From positions 124,001 through 188,000 of the forward strand of contig FOUN01000001.1 of NCBI GenBank assembly GCA_900114885.1: a DNA stretch of 64,000 nt. Reading direction: 5' to 3'. This DNA is from Psychrobacillus psychrodurans. Lineage in GTDB: Bacteria > Bacillota > Bacilli > Bacillales_A > Planococcaceae. This document shows, piece by piece, positions 47,840-53,625 of the stretch (position 1 is the first letter of the stretch; each line of letters starts with the position of its first letter). The notes below the pieces were generated by a model. The model was not told where the DNA came from and did no database searches. It saw only the letters and a program-made list of their open reading frames with translations. The position numbers and the translations under genes were made by a program.

Positions 47840-48790
47840 ATGTTAACAGCATTTAAATCGAAAAAAGAAGATATTGAACAATTCAAACAAAAGATAGATG
47901 ATTTAAACACAAAGCTGGATAAAAAAGATAATGAGTTTCAAATTTTCTTGAATGATTTACATAAAGAATTAGTATCTACTATCGGTCAACATGACATTGT
48001 AAACAATCAACACGCTATTTTAGGGAAAATGGTTGGAGAAATCTTAAAAGAGTTTAAACGAGTTGAAGAAAGTACGATAAACTCAAATAAGATTTCAGAG
48101 GAAGCGCTGGTGAAAGGAGAGTCACTAATCGCTTCATCAGATGAGATGGTTACATTATCCGTAGATAGTAGGGAAGCTGTACACGCTGTAGAAAATCTTA
48201 TCGATACCTTGGGGGATCAATCTAGAAAAACATCTGCAAGTATGAATCAATTAAGTGAACGGTCAAAACAGATTGAAGAAATTGTAAAAGTGATTAGCGA
48301 TATTTCTAGTCAAACAAATTTACTTGCCTTAAATGCATCGATTGAAGCTGCGAGAGCGGGAGAGCATGGGAAAGGATTTTCGGTTGTTGCAGATGAAGTC
48401 CGGAAACTTGCTGAAAGCACGAAGGAGAGCACCGCAGACATTGCAGATCTAACTCAAAAAATTCAAGAACAAATTTCAAAAGCGTACGAAGACAATATAA
48501 ACAACATGAACTTAGTAAGTGAAGGCATAAAAACTAGTTCTCAAACATCCGAGCAAATAAACTCCTTATTGAACATTATTACAAATGTTCAAGGGGAGGT
48601 AAATGAACTATTAAATTTCATTAAGCATCAAAAAGTTTCGAATGAAGATGTTATACACAAATTCCAAAAGACAACTGCATTGTTCGATGAAACTAATGAT
48701 GTGCTGATGAATCATATCGATGAATCAGAAGTAGTTACTGAAAAGCTTTTAGAAGCTGTTGATAAAGTAAAAGGCTTTCAATCCAAATAA
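47840..48790 (+). CDS. Soluble methyl-accepting chemotaxis-like protein
   Basis: 316 residues with no membrane helix or known ligand domain: an N-terminal coiled coil (1-60) and the MCP signalling domain whose conserved tip [20 protein letters not shown] lies about 163-182. Would act in the cytoplasm through CheA/CheW or another kinase. GGAGTGAAG precedes ATG. Single gene; stimulus unknown. Confidence 0.9.
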
Positions 48791-48833
48791 AAATACCAAG
48801 TATCAGCCTGCTGATACTTGGTATTTTTATTTT
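48789..48833. terminator. Terminator between chemoreceptor and mvaB
   Basis: AAAATACCAAGTATCAG and CTGATACTTGGTATTTT, four-base loop, A/T on both sides: serves both convergent genes. Confidence 0.9.
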
Positions 48834-48853: not shown

Positions 48854-49765
48854 CTAATGTTGAGATTCATAGTATTTTACGCTATAACTATCTAAAGGTT
48901 TTTGTAGTTTTTCTTGTATAAAAAGTGCTGCTCTATTGAGTTCGACGGGATTTATGTTTGTTACAATACCCATATTTGTAAGCATGTAATTTAAGTCATC
49001 CGTTGCCAAATTACCAGATGCTCCTGGAGCGTATGGACATCCACCCAACCCACCTAAAGAGCTATCAAATTTAGAAATACCCATTTCTAATGAAGCTAAT
49101 ACATTTGCTAAAGCAGTTCCACGGGTATTATGAAAATGCATAGCGATACTTTCGGGAGAATATCGTTTGAGAACTTTCTCTAATACTTTTTTTACTTGAG
49201 ATGGGTTAGCTATTCCAATGGTATCACCTAATGATAATTCATTTATGCCCATTTCAAACAACGAATCTGCTAATCGAATTACCTGATCAATTTCAATATG
49301 TCCTTCAAAAGGGCAACCAAAAACAGTTGAAATATACCCTCGAACTGTTTTTTTATTAGAGATACTTTCTTTAACGACCTCGGATAAAACAATTTCAGTT
49401 TCTGAAATTGTTTTATTAATATTATTCTTATTATGAGACTCACTCGCAGATATGAAAACAGCTACCTCATCAATACTACTCTCCAATGCTCGGGATAATC
49501 CTTTTATATTTGGAATAAGTGCGGCATAAGTAACATCGGGGTTTTTCTTTATATGTTTTGCTACATAATCTGCATCCGAAAGTGCGGGTATCCATGTAGG
49601 ATTTACAAAAGAAGTTACTTCTATATAGTTTAATCCTGTATTAGATAAGTGGTCTATCCATTGAATTTTATCGTCTGTTTGAATAAATTTAGACTCATTT
49701 TGTAATCCATCACGTGGGCCTACTTCTCTAATGTATACTTTTTCGGGAAAACTAGGTACGACCAT
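48854..49765 (-). CDS. mvaB: Hydroxymethylglutaryl-CoA lyase
   Basis: Cleaves HMG-CoA to acetyl-CoA and acetoacetate; 303 residues, TIM-barrel. N-terminal REVGPRDGLQNE and the catalytic-Cys signature GGLGGCPYAPGASGN (Cys about 240) identify it. ATG 49765 follows AAAGGAG by eight bases; nine upstream codons lack a site. Last gene of the four-gene operon with HMG-CoA reductase, small membrane protein and TctA permease. In this context it probably completes mevalonate breakdown rather than leucine breakdown. Confidence 0.95.
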   Translation of the reverse strand: MVVPSFPEKVYIREVGPRDGLQNESKFIQTDDKIQWIDHLSNTGLNYIEVTSFVNPTWIPALSDADYVAKHIKKNPDVTYAALIPNIKGLSRALESSIDEVAVFISASESHNKNNINKTISETEIVLSEVVKESISNKKTVRGYISTVFGCPFEGHIEIDQVIRLADSLFEMGINELSLGDTIGIANPSQVKKVLEKVLKRYSPESIAMHFHNTRGTALANVLASLEMGISKFDSSLGGLGGCPYAPGASGNLATDDLNYMLTNMGIVTNINPVELNRAALFIQEKLQKPLDSYSVKYYESQH

Positions 49766-49781
49766 ATTAAAAACTCCTTTC

Positions 49782-51137
49782 TTAAATTCCAAATAGGGTC
49801 ATCATAATCCAAGTTGAAGCGTAGAAAATCATAAATTGCACACCAGCCCCGATTCCAAGAATTCGATTTAAAAGACCACCAACTGCTGCTACTGTGAATG
49901 TAAGTACAACACCAACAAGTTGTGCTTCATGGTAAGCCAGTAGACAAGCAAGCCCGATGAACATTGCAACAATAGCTTCTTGACTTACAAGTTTCATTAC
50001 GAGAACAGAAGCTTTTCTTGCATAGTTCATAGAGAAAGGGTAAGCGATCAATGAAGCTACAATAAGACCTATTGCTCCGTAAAGGAAAAACTCCCATGAA
50101 GTTAAATAGGTATGCAGATTATTAATAGGATCTACGGTGAAAACAGGTGGTGCATTAAATAATGGCGAACCAGGACCTAGAGCGACAGGACTTAGTGGAA
50201 TTCCAAACGCTATTAATGGAATGATTACCTCTGCAATATATGTTGACTCTGTTACCCCGTTCATTACTGCTAAACTAGTTGTAGACTTCTTATAAGCACC
50301 TTTTGTACGGGAACCGACAATTTCACCCATAAGAGATGTCATACCTACAGGACTAAAAACAAAAGTAAGAGAAGATATAAACGTAGTAATAGAAGTGAAT
50401 ATTTGTTGTCGACCAGTTAAAATCTTCAAGGGATTCGGGAAGTATCCCTTCCATGATTTAGTTTCTGGTGCTAGATGATATTCTTTAGGCTTATCTCTTT
50501 CAATTGTCTTTTTAGCACTAGAGGAAGTGGCAAATAGAAGATCACAGAAAATCGGACCTATTGCAATTCCTAAGAAAAAACTGATTGATAAATGCTTATC
50601 TAATATACTAAAACTCATCAAATCTAAACTTTTAATAAAGAATGCAAATGGAATAATCATTAAAACACTCACCCATTTACCTTTAGAGAAAAAGGCGATT
50701 AAAATTGCAGCAAGTGTAAAAATTATTCCAGTTGATGACTTGAAAAAGTCAGCAAATTGTCCTAAAAATTGACCTAACAGAACAGCGGTTGGTAGGGCGA
50801 TAAATGCGCCAATAATCCCACCAGAAATCATCTTTCTCAGGGCAATATGAGGCATACCCATTCTTCTTAAAGTAGTTGCATGATCTATTAATGGAACAGC
50901 AGTAGTATCCCCGGGAATACCCATTAATGCAGTTGGAACTGCATGTGTAAGATGTTTTGCTAGAACAGCTGCCATGAAAAATGAAAATACAGCAGCAGGA
51001 GGAGCACCTAATAGAATTACTAACAAAGTAAGAGGGACCATAATTGCAGTCTCATCAGTACCAGATATTAATCCTATTAAAGAAAAGACAATAGCACCAA
51101 GTAATGCAAATAAAATAGCTGTGACTAGTAAACTCAT
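49782..51137 (-). CDS. TctA-family organic-acid permease
   Basis: Tripartite tricarboxylate transporter (TctA) large permease, 451 residues and about eleven to twelve helices, somewhat shorter than the usual 500. Signature GIPGDTTAVPLIDHATTLRRMG (about 74-95). Starts within the stop of the small upstream membrane gene (ATGA). No periplasmic-type binding protein (TctC) gene is nearby. The neighbouring enzymes make mevalonate a plausible substrate; this is inference. Confidence 0.85.
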   Translation of the reverse strand: MSLLVTAILFALLGAIVFSLIGLISGTDETAIMVPLTLLVILLGAPPAAVFSFFMAAVLAKHLTHAVPTALMGIPGDTTAVPLIDHATTLRRMGMPHIALRKMISGGIIGAFIALPTAVLLGQFLGQFADFFKSSTGIIFTLAAILIAFFSKGKWVSVLMIIPFAFFIKSLDLMSFSILDKHLSISFFLGIAIGPIFCDLLFATSSSAKKTIERDKPKEYHLAPETKSWKGYFPNPLKILTGRQQIFTSITTFISSLTFVFSPVGMTSLMGEIVGSRTKGAYKKSTTSLAVMNGVTESTYIAEVIIPLIAFGIPLSPVALGPGSPLFNAPPVFTVDPINNLHTYLTSWEFFLYGAIGLIVASLIAYPFSMNYARKASVLVMKLVSQEAIVAMFIGLACLLAYHEAQLVGVVLTFTVAAVGGLLNRILGIGAGVQFMIFYASTWIMMTLFGI

Positions 51138-51580
51138 TTCTTTTGCTCCTCTCCAAGTGCCCGAAAACTATTTAAAACTCCTAGTTCTTCCAGTTCTTTT
51201 TTAGTAATAGGGTCATTCTCGATTAGTTCTAATTCTTCTTGAGGATCCAGTTGTAAATCTTCGAAAACTTGTCTCATGCTTTCAGACGAGGTTTCCTCTT
51301 CAACTAATATTCTTTTTGGTTTAAATAGAATGGAACAAAGAACTAAAGAGATAACACTTCCTAAAATTCCGATTAACAATGAGTATGAAGCAACCATACT
51401 TTCACTTGCGATAGCAGGAAGCAACCAAAGACCAATATTATACCCTCCTAAACTAATTCCTACGCTTAATAAAACCGCTAGAAGCAATTGATTTGGTAGG
51501 ATGGTATCTCCAAGTATTTCTAAATACGTTTTTTTGTTCTCATTCAAACTAGTAGCTGATGATTTCTTGTTATTTACCAT
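51134..51580 (-). CDS. Two-helix membrane protein, probable small subunit of the TctA system
   Basis: 148 residues with two hydrophobic segments (about 33-55 and 65-87) and a long acidic cytoplasmic tail (LDPQEELELIENDPITKKELEELG). TctB subunits normally have four helices, so this is at best a shortened or unrelated functional replacement. ATG 51580 follows AGGTGA that lies in the last codons of mvaA; overlaps tctA by four bases. Position strongly suggests that it works with the permease. Confidence 0.78.
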   Translation of the reverse strand: MVNNKKSSATSLNENKKTYLEILGDTILPNQLLLAVLLSVGISLGGYNIGLWLLPAIASESMVASYSLLIGILGSVISLVLCSILFKPKRILVEEETSSESMRQVFEDLQLDPQEELELIENDPITKKELEELGVLNSFRALGEEQKK

Positions 51581-51581
51581 C

Positions 51582-52850
51582 CTATTCACCTCTTCGAATT
51601 GCTTTAGTTATTTCTAAGATACGGTCATACCTAAGGTCTTTCTCTTTGACTGCTTGTGCGACGATTCTATCTATATCTTCCTTTTTTGCTCCTGCCATTA
51701 CTGCTAAGTTTCTGGCATGTAATGACATGTGGCCTCTTTGGATACCTTCAGCTGATAAGGCCCTTAAGGCAGCCGCATTCTGCGCCAATCCTGCCGCTGC
51801 TATACAACCTGCAAGCTCCTCAGCAGAATTTACTCCCATAATTTTAAGAGCGCCTTGTGCAACAGGATGTGTTTTCGTGGCTCCACCAACAATTCCAACA
51901 GCCATCGGTAGCTCAATAGAACCTGATAAATTACCATCTGCATTTATTTCCCATTTTGTTAAAGACTTATATTGACCAGATATAGATGCATAGGCATGTG
52001 CTCCTGCCTCTACAGCACGAGTATCGTTCCCAGTTGCTAAAACTACAGCAGAAATTCCATTCATTATACCCTTGTTGTGGGTAGTAGCTCGATAAGGATC
52101 ATAATCGGCAAATTCGAAAGCGCTTACAATGTTATCGACAACCTCTTTGCCACCAAATGCATCTGTAGAAAAAGTAGCTCTTGCACGAACTAATCTACGG
52201 TCAGCTAAATTAGATATAATTTTTAATACAACTTTACCACCAGTAATTGTCTCGATAGTAGGGGAAACTGCTTCTGCCATCGTATTTACAGCATTTGCAC
52301 CCATTGCATCTTTTGTATCAACAATTAGATGAATAACTAACATTATTTGAGAGTTTGTTGGAATGATATGAACCTCTAAATCCTTAGCTCCTCCGCCTAA
52401 TGAAACTAATGTTGGATCTTTCTCATTACAATAAGCTAAAATTTCTTCTTTATGCTCAAAAATCTTAGCTTTTGCAGCATATGGATCTGCTACATTTAAA
52501 ACTTGAATTTGTCCACGCATGATGGTTCCGCTTATTGATGTGAAAAAACCACCGTGTTCATAGCTTGCTTTTGCTGCATTACTAGCGGCTGCTACAACAG
52601 AAGGTTCTTCTGTTGCCATAGGAATAAACATATCTTTTCCGTTAATTTTAAAATTGGTTGCAATCCCTAGTGGAATTCCAATCTGACCAATAACGTTTTC
52701 TATCATTGAATCTGCTAAATCCATCGAAAGTGGATACTCCCCAGATAAATACTTTAATTGATCATCTGTTAGGTTGCGTCCCTCTGTTACAATATCAAAT
52801 CTTTCTTTAGGTGATAAACGATAAAATCCTGGAACTCTTGTATTTGACAT
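51582..52850 (-). CDS. mvaA: Class II (degradative-type) HMG-CoA reductase
   Basis: 422 residues, cytoplasmic. Class II motifs: ENVIGQIGIPLGIA (51-64), catalytic Glu in MATEEPSVV (78-86), dinucleotide motif DAMGANAVN (181-189), Lys260 in HNKGIMNG, Asp276 in GNDTRAV, His in RGHMSLHARN (372-381). No N-terminal membrane region. In Pseudomonas mevalonii the enzyme runs mevalonate to HMG-CoA with NAD. Being in one operon with HMG-CoA lyase argues for catabolism. ATG 52850 follows AAGGGGTG, right after the palindrome. Confidence 0.95.
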   Translation of the reverse strand: MSNTRVPGFYRLSPKERFDIVTEGRNLTDDQLKYLSGEYPLSMDLADSMIENVIGQIGIPLGIATNFKINGKDMFIPMATEEPSVVAAASNAAKASYEHGGFFTSISGTIMRGQIQVLNVADPYAAKAKIFEHKEEILAYCNEKDPTLVSLGGGAKDLEVHIIPTNSQIMLVIHLIVDTKDAMGANAVNTMAEAVSPTIETITGGKVVLKIISNLADRRLVRARATFSTDAFGGKEVVDNIVSAFEFADYDPYRATTHNKGIMNGISAVVLATGNDTRAVEAGAHAYASISGQYKSLTKWEINADGNLSGSIELPMAVGIVGGATKTHPVAQGALKIMGVNSAEELAGCIAAAGLAQNAAALRALSAEGIQRGHMSLHARNLAVMAGAKKEDIDRIVAQAVKEKDLRYDRILEITKAIRRGE

Positions 52851-52865
52851 AATATACACCCCTTA

Positions 52866-52912
52866 TTTTTGTGTAATAGCATTCAACCTAGTTGAATGCT
52901 ATTACACAAAAA
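52866..52912. promoter_or_regulatory. 47-base perfect palindrome before mvaA
   Basis: Arms of 22 bases, beginning TTTTTGTGTAATAGC and ATTCAAC, perfectly complementary around a three-base centre CTA. It starts at the predicted -10 and ends at the mvaA ribosome site. T precedes and A follows the hairpin, the reverse of an intrinsic terminator, so an operator or a 5'-leader hairpin is more likely. Sits between the XRE-cupin gene and the operon it may control. Confidence 0.75.
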
Positions 52913-52937
52913 TACATTAATAATTATTACTTGTAAA
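52909..52937 (-). promoter_or_regulatory. Predicted promoter of the mvaA operon
   Basis: Minus strand: TTTACA (52937-52932), 17-base spacer, TATTTT (52914-52909). The start of transcription would fall within the left arm of the palindrome, so a protein bound there would block it. Confidence 0.45.
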
Positions 52938-53061
52938 TACCAAATTTAAAATCTATTCAGAAAATGAAATCTCTTTAAATATTAGCTTAATAATTATTAA
53001 TGAAGATTAGGAATGGCAGAGAAGGAGAAAAATACGGTTGGTTCCTTCGATATGATACGAA

Positions 53062-53625
53062 TTAAAGGGGATTATTTTGTATAAAAAAAGTCAACACTGT
53101 TGCTTCTTTGTTCTTATCTGCTGAAAGAAAAATATGTGGTATATTTCCTTCGAAATAGGCGCTATCACCTTGTTCTAAATAATGCAGCTCACCATCATAA
53201 TAAAGATTGATAGATCCGTTAAGAATATAAATAAACTCGTCTTCCACATGAGTAAATGGTTCTACATACTCAGCTTCAGGTAGGACGGTTACTATAACTG
53301 GCTCTACTTTACTGAAACGGGGACGATTGGCAAGTGCCTCGTAAGTATATCCAATCTCTTTATTTCCGATTTTTAATTTTTTTTCATTGCTTTTAACTAT
53401 TGATAATTTATTTTGAAGATTGGATTCCAAAAACCATGACAAAGGAGTATCCAACTCATGTGCTATTTTTGATAGAGTCGCTACAGCGGGTGCAGCTTGT
53501 CCATTTTCTATTTTTGAAATATGACTTTTTGTAAGATTGCATCTTTCAGCTAGATCTTGTTGAGTAAAATTCTTGCTTAACCTAGCTTCCTTAACTTTTT
53601 TACCGATATTATGTTGAAGATAAAT
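53062..53625 (-). CDS. XRE-cupin transcriptional regulator with apparent ATT start codon
   Basis: 187 residues: XRE helix-turn-helix (about 7-62: GKKVKEARLSKNFTQQDLAE, SHISKIENGQAAPAVATL), then a cupin domain (about 110-180: PFTHVEDEFIYILNGS, YYDGELHYLEQGDSAYF, IPHIF). The frame opens at a TAG (53640-53638) and holds no ATG, GTG, TTG or CTG before the HTH; the first TTG (53454) would delete it. ATT at 53625-53623 is eight bases after a perfect AGGAGG, so it is the probable start. Upstream of and co-oriented with the mva operon. Confidence 0.8.
   Translation of the reverse strand: MYLQHNIGKKVKEARLSKNFTQQDLAERCNLTKSHISKIENGQAAPAVATLSKIAHELDTPLSWFLESNLQNKLSIVKSNEKKLKIGNKEIGYTYEALANRPRFSKVEPVIVTVLPEAEYVEPFTHVEDEFIYILNGSINLYYDGELHYLEQGDSAYFEGNIPHIFLSADKNKEATVLTFFIQNNPL

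Follow-up and report, generated by a model that had tools for sequence, protein, structure and literature searches.

A predicted system for the import and degradation of mevalonate in Psychrobacillus psychrodurans

The question raised by this locus is what a 3-hydroxy-3-methylglutaryl-coenzyme A (HMG-CoA) reductase does in an operon that also encodes an HMG-CoA lyase and a TctA-like permease. The locus occupies positions 48854-53625 of a window of 64,000 nucleotides from Psychrobacillus psychrodurans (contig FOUN01000001.1, positions 124,001 to 188,000), to which all coordinates below refer. A preliminary description, made from the sequence alone, had read it as an operon of a spore former dedicated to the degradation of mevalonate. 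According to the sequence comparisons reported here, the unit is most probably a substrate-controlled system that imports and degrades mevalonate, a reading to which a probability of roughly 0.87 is assigned.

In the mechanism proposed, a small two-helix protein and the TctA-like permease would constitute a secondary mevalonate importer without an adjacent binding-protein gene. Family chemistry and genetic context suggest that the reductase would run oxidatively with NAD+ and CoA, converting mevalonate into HMG-CoA, and that the lyase would split the latter into acetyl-CoA and acetoacetate, which a CoA-transferase encoded elsewhere, of a gene family found in the genome, may then activate. An XRE-cupin regulator is predicted to bind the sequence ATTCAAC-N3-GTTGAAT near the transcription start and to repress the operon until mevalonate or one of its products is sensed by the cupin domain. 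Isoprenoids would be made separately through the methylerythritol phosphate (MEP) route, and in other Bacilli the same importer family would feed imported mevalonate to mevalonate kinase for isoprenoid synthesis.

The gene unit and its two enzymes

All five genes lie on the minus strand. The first encodes the XRE-cupin regulator (53062-53625), in which the HTH_3 (64 bits) and Cupin_2 (46.9 bits) domains are both above their cut-offs. It is followed by the genes for a class II HMG-CoA reductase (51582-52850), assigned to the degradative class by TIGR00532 (476.5 bits, cut-off 259.95); the small two-helix membrane protein of 148 amino acids (51134-51580), predicted to be the partner of the permease from its position before it, an alignment and an AlphaFold2 model; the TctA-like permease of 451 amino acids (49782-51137; PF01970, 91 bits, cut-off 28.9), a predicted mevalonate carrier according to the context of its relatives; and HMG-CoA lyase (48854-49765; NF004283, 435.3 bits, cut-off 246), which yields acetyl-CoA and acetoacetate from HMG-CoA. 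One base separates the reductase and small-protein genes, the latter overlaps the permease gene by 4 bases, and 16 bases lie between permease and lyase. The five genes and their tight packing are thus as initially described, the former by profile matches (regulator, reductase, permease and lyase) and the latter by the coordinates. The end of the regulator gene is 211 bases away from the ATG of the reductase, which means that the regulator need not be on the same transcript as the other four genes. This ATG, at 52850, is the likely start codon, while the listed open reading frame (ORF) opens at an upstream GTG. Homologous gene sets, with permeases 50-98% identical, recur in other families and phyla, indicating that the gene set is not a product of chance.

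Pseudomonas mevalonii is known to catabolize mevalonate by means of the reductase and the lyase encoded by mvaAB, and the presence of the lyase in the same operon as the reductase is what is found in the window as well. The window reductase was aligned with that of P. mevalonii (1qax). Its catalytic residues E81, K260, D276 and H374 are intact, and all four are kept in 116 of 116 aligned reductases; the counterpart of the aspartate in P. mevalonii is presumably D283. The other catalytic residues of that enzyme are given as E83, K267 and H381 in passages of PMC10070635. The lyase aligns over nearly its full length with the solved HMG-CoA lyases 1ydo and 2cw6.

Reductases and permeases were surveyed in 398 genomes of the class. 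HMG-CoA reductase appears in 82 of them (in four by weak matches of 21-32 bits only), and the extended loci were read for the 20 best places after the window's own, of which 17 are of catabolic type and three (L051-L053) lie near mvaD, the gene for diphosphomevalonate decarboxylase. The use of NADH by the window enzyme is predicted from its cofactor helix, which reads DPTLVSL and holds D145 and L151 at the positions of the NADH motif. The motifs are stated in part of PMC13370337 to be Dx(V/L)xxxL for NADH and (H/Y)xSxxxR for NADPH; excerpts of PMC10070635 name Asp-146 and Leu-152 in the helix of the P. mevalonii reductase and attribute the use of NADH to the Asp position, and this Asp is reported in five NADH-using enzymes in a passage of PMC12292504. 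The helix starts with D in all 18 catabolic-type Bacilli reductases (the window and L034-L050), 16 of which end it with L, and it reads (Y/H)xSxxxR in 13 of 13 other Bacilli reductases, namely L024-L033, considered by sequence and not by neighbourhood, and L051-L053. Genome G380 is, on sequence grounds, a natural control for the two predicted types, as it holds both a reductase adjoining mvaD with the NADPH-type helix YPSIVAR (C11, L052) and another beside a TctA-like permease with DPTLVSF (C1, L047).

The permease, its small partner and the predicted substrate

The preliminary description had regarded the pairing of these enzymes with a TctA-like carrier as unusual, a claim that did not hold. 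The small protein and the permease lie beside the reductase in 15 of the 17 catabolic-type relatives, ten of which keep the order reductase, small protein, permease, lyase; with the window included, the permease is present in 16 of 18 catabolic-type Bacilli loci. It was also found in 21 of 80 named reductase loci from GTDB genomes, a biased sample that represents 80 of 590 matches and leaves out the 70%-identical relatives: none of the 29 loci with archaeal titles (sorted by title) has it, and 21 of the 51 others do. Among these 51, the lyase is within the stretch in 19, and lyase and permease together in 12. The 21 permease loci belong to Bordetella, Achromobacter, Burkholderia, Caballeronia, Cupriavidus, Variovorax, Pseudomonas, Rhizobium, Acinetobacter, Salinicola, Nocardia, Clostridium and Oceanobacillus. 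Both membrane proteins hence adjoin HMG-CoA reductase in Bacilli, Clostridium, Nocardia and Pseudomonadota, in some cases on plasmids. Six permease matches came from plasmid records, of which five were opened: all five contain the reductase, four the small protein (by tblastn) and three the lyase. Three of these five are annotated, and there the small protein is labelled 'hypothetical'. The divergent neighbour of the plasmid loci holds an aminotransferase domain in all three cases scanned, two of which also have a GntR domain, and this points to a regulator of the MocR type rather than an XRE-cupin. As a separate observation, the catabolic-type loci L046 and L049 hold an SMP-30-like beta-propeller protein, a relative of which is found near the L101 cassette.

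In the survey of the class, the permease was located at 26 places in 25 genomes; the number of candidates scored was capped at four for most genomes, and additional copies may have escaped notice. Sixteen of the 26 places are beside HMG-CoA reductase, one is a deleted cassette beside the lyase, six are clusters with mevalonate kinase and three stand alone. The 17 places at 64-100% identity comprise 14 beside reductase, the deleted cassette (L162, in G121) and two isolated copies (G268 and G371); the nine at 37-40% comprise two beside reductase (G380 and G144), one alone (G268) and the six mevalonate kinase clusters. The deletion in L162 is in frame and fuses the first residues of the reductase into about residue 123 of the permease; the deleted cassette sits between regulator and lyase genes, with the operator kept, in a genome that has no HMG-CoA reductase.

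The six clusters (L163-L168) consist of genes for mevalonate kinase, the decarboxylase and phosphomevalonate kinase together with a TctA-like permease about 38% identical to that of the window. When 20 of their proteins were scanned against NCBIfam, each of the 20 passed the cut-off of the enzyme expected. This applies to mevalonate kinase in all six clusters, to diphosphomevalonate decarboxylase and phosphomevalonate kinase in 5 of 5 scanned each, and to type 2 isopentenyl diphosphate isomerase in the four where one was seen. The sixth decarboxylase (L166) matches its Pfam domains, and the assignment of the sixth phosphomevalonate kinase (L167) is by visual inspection. Four of the host genomes (G251, G259, G176 and G129) have no HMG-CoA reductase and no HMG-CoA synthase above the cut-off, while ispG is above it. 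Without reductase or synthase they would make no mevalonate by this route, and would need none if the MEP route works, yet they keep the genes to use it, among which the permease gene is placed. The other two, G386 and G244, have both reductase and synthase. In G386, which has mevalonate pathway genes as well, ispG is broken into three adjacent pieces (C7:46927-47964), reflecting either decay of the MEP route or sequencing errors.

What the degradative and the kinase contexts have in common is mevalonate, and the best reading of the two membrane proteins is accordingly that they import it. They probably represent a dedicated bacterial importer family, used to burn mevalonate and, in Bacilli that own the MEP route and have neither reductase nor synthase, to salvage it into isoprenoids via mevalonate kinase. 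The import of mevalonate proposed in the preliminary description would in this way gain independent backing from permease relatives encoded next to enzymes of a different pathway. In the permease tree, the six salvage copies, three reductase-linked copies and one orphan fall on one side of a branch with 100/100 support, indicating a change of context inside this group. Support for the salvage group is 88/76, and the program warns of long branches.

The small partner follows the permease through both contexts. Apart from the window, 51 loci were examined, and in 50 of them a short ORF lies closely upstream of the permease gene; only the deleted L162 lacks it. The candidate of L103 is spurious, as it has no hydrophobic stretches, and 49 are convincing by eye. 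In an alignment of 19 small proteins from both contexts, G71, P88 and R90 are strictly conserved, and D25, G74 and K89 almost so (window numbering). Those of the 37-40% branch, whether from salvage or reductase-linked loci, measure 75-94 amino acids and do not have the C-terminal part. The AlphaFold2 model of the window protein (predicted local distance difference test, pLDDT, 78.0) has two long helices (29-56 and 60-85), after which come four short ones, in agreement with the two-helix membrane protein first described. No Pfam model is above the cut-off on it, and no TctB model is among the Pfam matches of the 19 small proteins at E <= 1, a range in which the HMMER filters drop most matches above 0.1. 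The permease was modelled with a pLDDT of 79.8 and a predicted TM-score of 0.80. Neither model has a fold match in the PDB at E <= 0.001, which provides no structural support for or against the assignment, and phmmer with the permease returned one chance-level match only (E 0.32).

It could be argued that the permease carries another acid, such as acetoacetate or 3-hydroxy-3-methylglutarate, and that mevalonate enters otherwise. Part of PMC5812351 states that TctA-family carriers move several kinds of carboxylates, and two catabolic-type loci without the permease hold a carrier of the major facilitator superfamily (MFS). Against it, what the kinase clusters share with the catabolic operon is mevalonate, and neither acetoacetate nor 3-hydroxy-3-methylglutarate; both contexts fall on one branch of the permease tree; and some loci lacking the permease have MFS or TRAP genes beside the reductase instead. 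Such a substrate is considered improbable. A second possibility is that the flow is reversed, HMG-CoA from the breakdown of leucine being reduced to mevalonate, which would be exported as overflow. The reaction of the reductase is indeed reversible, and a sequence cannot tell the direction of transport. However, the lyase beside the reductase drains HMG-CoA, and the relatives of the permease in the kinase clusters of the four genomes without reductase would have to take mevalonate up, so that export is regarded as very improbable.

Host metabolism and control of the operon

The predictions of the preliminary description about the host were borne out for the genes searched. In its assembly, 99.96% complete, there is one HMG-CoA reductase, and ispG is present with 434.7 bits. 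No mvaD was found above the cut-off (the sole match reaches 21.1 bits), and no HMG-CoA synthase either (45.2 and 35.6 bits, cut-off 360.35). Taking mvaD, HMG-CoA synthase and ispG as stand-ins for mvaK1, mvaK2 and dxs, the mevalonate pathway is absent and the MEP route present. Two genes of the pcaJ/scoB (CoA-transferase) family are above the cut-off and could activate acetoacetate. The absence of mvaD and synthase, the presence of ispG and these two genes all support the role in mevalonate degradation. The host is a spore former by gene content, as genes for YhbH (sporulation) and for a Ger(x)C germination protein, each above the cut-off, lie in the window.

The same pattern extends to a set of 20 genomes, made up of the host and 19 whose reductase loci were read. 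There, mvaD is above the cut-off in three (G371, G380 and G227), in each case no more than about 2 kb from a reductase, and ispG in 17, the others being G380, G371 and G253. HMG-CoA synthase is above the cut-off in four of 28 genomes, none of which has a catabolic-type reductase alone. That the window reductase makes mevalonate for isoprenoids, as class II enzymes are said to do in other Gram-positive bacteria and as the three of 20 extended loci close to mvaD (L051-L053) might suggest, is scarcely credible and was rejected on the lack of mvaD and synthase, the presence of ispG and the mvaD/ispG pattern of the 20 genomes, to which are added the HMG-CoA-destroying lyase in its operon and its NADH-like helix.

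The control of the operon was approached through the sequence upstream of the reductase gene. A perfect inverted repeat with arms of 24 nucleotides and a loop of 3 (52864-52914) lies directly before its ribosome-binding site and contains the core ATTCAAC-N3-GTTGAAT (52881-52897), which is common to reductase upstream regions and to which the XRE-cupin regulator is predicted to bind. If one mismatch is allowed, this operator is present in 17 of 17 catabolic-type Bacilli loci, at none of the three loci near mvaD and at none of the six salvage loci; it also occurs at L054, L162 and L169. The orphans L160 and L161 and the Pseudomonadota loci have none. Sites with two mismatches at two salvage loci and at L051 were taken as chance. 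In 38 genomes, 22 exact sites were found in 20 genomes, compared with 0 for a reversed control pattern. Seventeen of them are at reductase cassettes, in 16 of 18 cassette genomes; G181 has two, one of them before the regulator gene, and G383 and G316 have one-mismatch sites. One more is at the deleted cassette of G121, one at an orphan permease of G268, and two precede HMG-CoA lyase and XRE-cupin genes unlinked to the permease (G380 C22 and G371 C14), the G380 pair having been confirmed by Pfam. The genome of the window contains a single exact site. In G371, where lyase and XRE-cupin genes stand behind an operator (L196), the only reductase adjoins mvaD and the orphan permease (L161) has no operator.

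A promoter-like site, TTTACA-17-TATTTT, matches the consensus at 52909-52937 on the minus strand, and a TTTACA hexamer was likewise selected ahead of the operator in nine of 17 related loci. In 14 of 17 loci, a distance of 2-14 bases separates the end of the automatically picked -10 hexamer from the operator downstream, a placement that, as judged from sequence, is as for a repressor site. The automatic pick is farther away in L034, L037, L050 and the window; in the window, another listed site leaves 11 bases. The regulator has the HTH_3 and Cupin_2 architecture of PuuR-like XRE-cupin proteins; the PuuR model gives 69 bits, below its cut-off of 211, so it is not PuuR itself. None of the codons ATG, GTG and TTG occurs in its gene from the in-frame stop to the HTH domain, which is likewise the case in a sister species (L034). 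An AGGAGG precedes the ATT codon at 53623-53625 by 8 bases, and translation probably starts at this ATT (53625).

Several observations weigh against the system proposed here or limit its reach. The third position of the cofactor helix is T in the window, and not the V or L of the published NADH motif. Within the loci of the 17 catabolic-type relatives, the lyase is found in only 11, the match of L049 spanning 191 of 303 residues, and the regulator in only 12, five having none within the stretch read. L046 and L049 are the two that carry an MFS carrier instead of the permease (by Pfam for L046, by similarity for L049). Three copies of the permease stand alone, two in G268 and one in G371. G253, the least complete genome of its set (97%), has neither ispG nor mvaD above the cut-off, and no scoB-family match was obtained in G204 and G380. 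As for the operator, an exact site also occurs within an ORF of G111, which belongs to the 10 genomes lacking a cassette, and is taken as background. If up to two mismatches are allowed, 0.6 sites are expected by chance in the window, and the weight consequently rests on the match being exact, conserved and unique in the genome.

Further elements complete the locus. A second perfect inverted repeat, CATTAATAATTATTA, lies upstream of the operator (52915-53002), with arms at 52915-52929 and 52988-53002, 58 bases apart. A terminator-like stem-loop, a consensus match only, is located between the lyase gene and a convergent chemotaxis-protein gene (48787-48830). The scans of the region gave five terminator sites for 3.2 expected in shuffled sequences, a small excess, and 14 promoter-like sites for 19.9 expected, which is no excess.

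Comparison with known systems

The degradation of mevalonate by a reductase and a lyase is of a known kind. New, as far as the open-access literature shows, would be the predicted carrier assignment, two-helix partner, operator and salvage clusters: no mevalonate importer, small subunit or operator of this type was found in that literature, subscription journals being mostly outside its scope, and among the matches listed for mevalonate with 'tripartite tricarboxylate', none deals with mevalonate transport by title or abstract. If the assignment is right, it provides a genetically defined bacterial mevalonate importer, which could help to feed mevalonate to engineered isoprenoid producers, and a TctA-type carrier whose partner is a two-helix protein instead of TctB and TctC. 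The operator would be a candidate mevalonate-responsive switch. Judging by the genomes that combine the MEP route with salvage genes, bacteria would scavenge mevalonate, with fungi or plants as possible sources, and it may be a traded nutrient.

With respect to TctABC, the window permease matches PF01970 over nearly its full length. The partner differs, having two membrane helices in its model versus the 4-5 of TctB, and a scan limited to the genes of the operon and five neighbours gave no match to the binding protein TctC. A 2018 review describes, in the passages available, bacterial TctA proteins without TctC as rare, with a mode of action only guessed (PMC5812351). The same passages present archaeal TctA homologues without TctB or TctC, which resemble the window permease in that they are thought to act without a binding protein and differ from it in that no small partner is reported there and their substrates are unknown (PMC5812351).

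Gram-negative clusters, such as that of the Roseomonas gilardii plasmid pRo-1, match the window unit in gene content and order in two opened plasmid records, where the four genes are labelled 'HMG-CoA reductase, degradative', hypothetical, 'tripartite tricarboxylate transporter permease' and HMG-CoA lyase. Unlike the window unit, they have a MocR-type divergent neighbour, and the palindrome was not found there at <=1 mismatch. Other named reductase loci without the permease (Acidovorax, Allopusillimonas, Rhizobium halophilum and others) also have a carboxylate carrier beside the reductase, but one of the TRAP family with a binding protein, since one representative scanned per subunit cluster matches DctP, DctQ and DctM.

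The closest parallel in metabolic terms is offered by mvaAB of P. mevalonii, with which the window unit shares an NADH-type class II reductase, having Asp at the position that sets the use of NADH according to part of PMC10070635, and an HMG-CoA lyase. It differs from mvaAB in its Firmicute host, in its XRE-cupin regulator with a conserved palindrome, and in its TctA-like carrier with a small partner.

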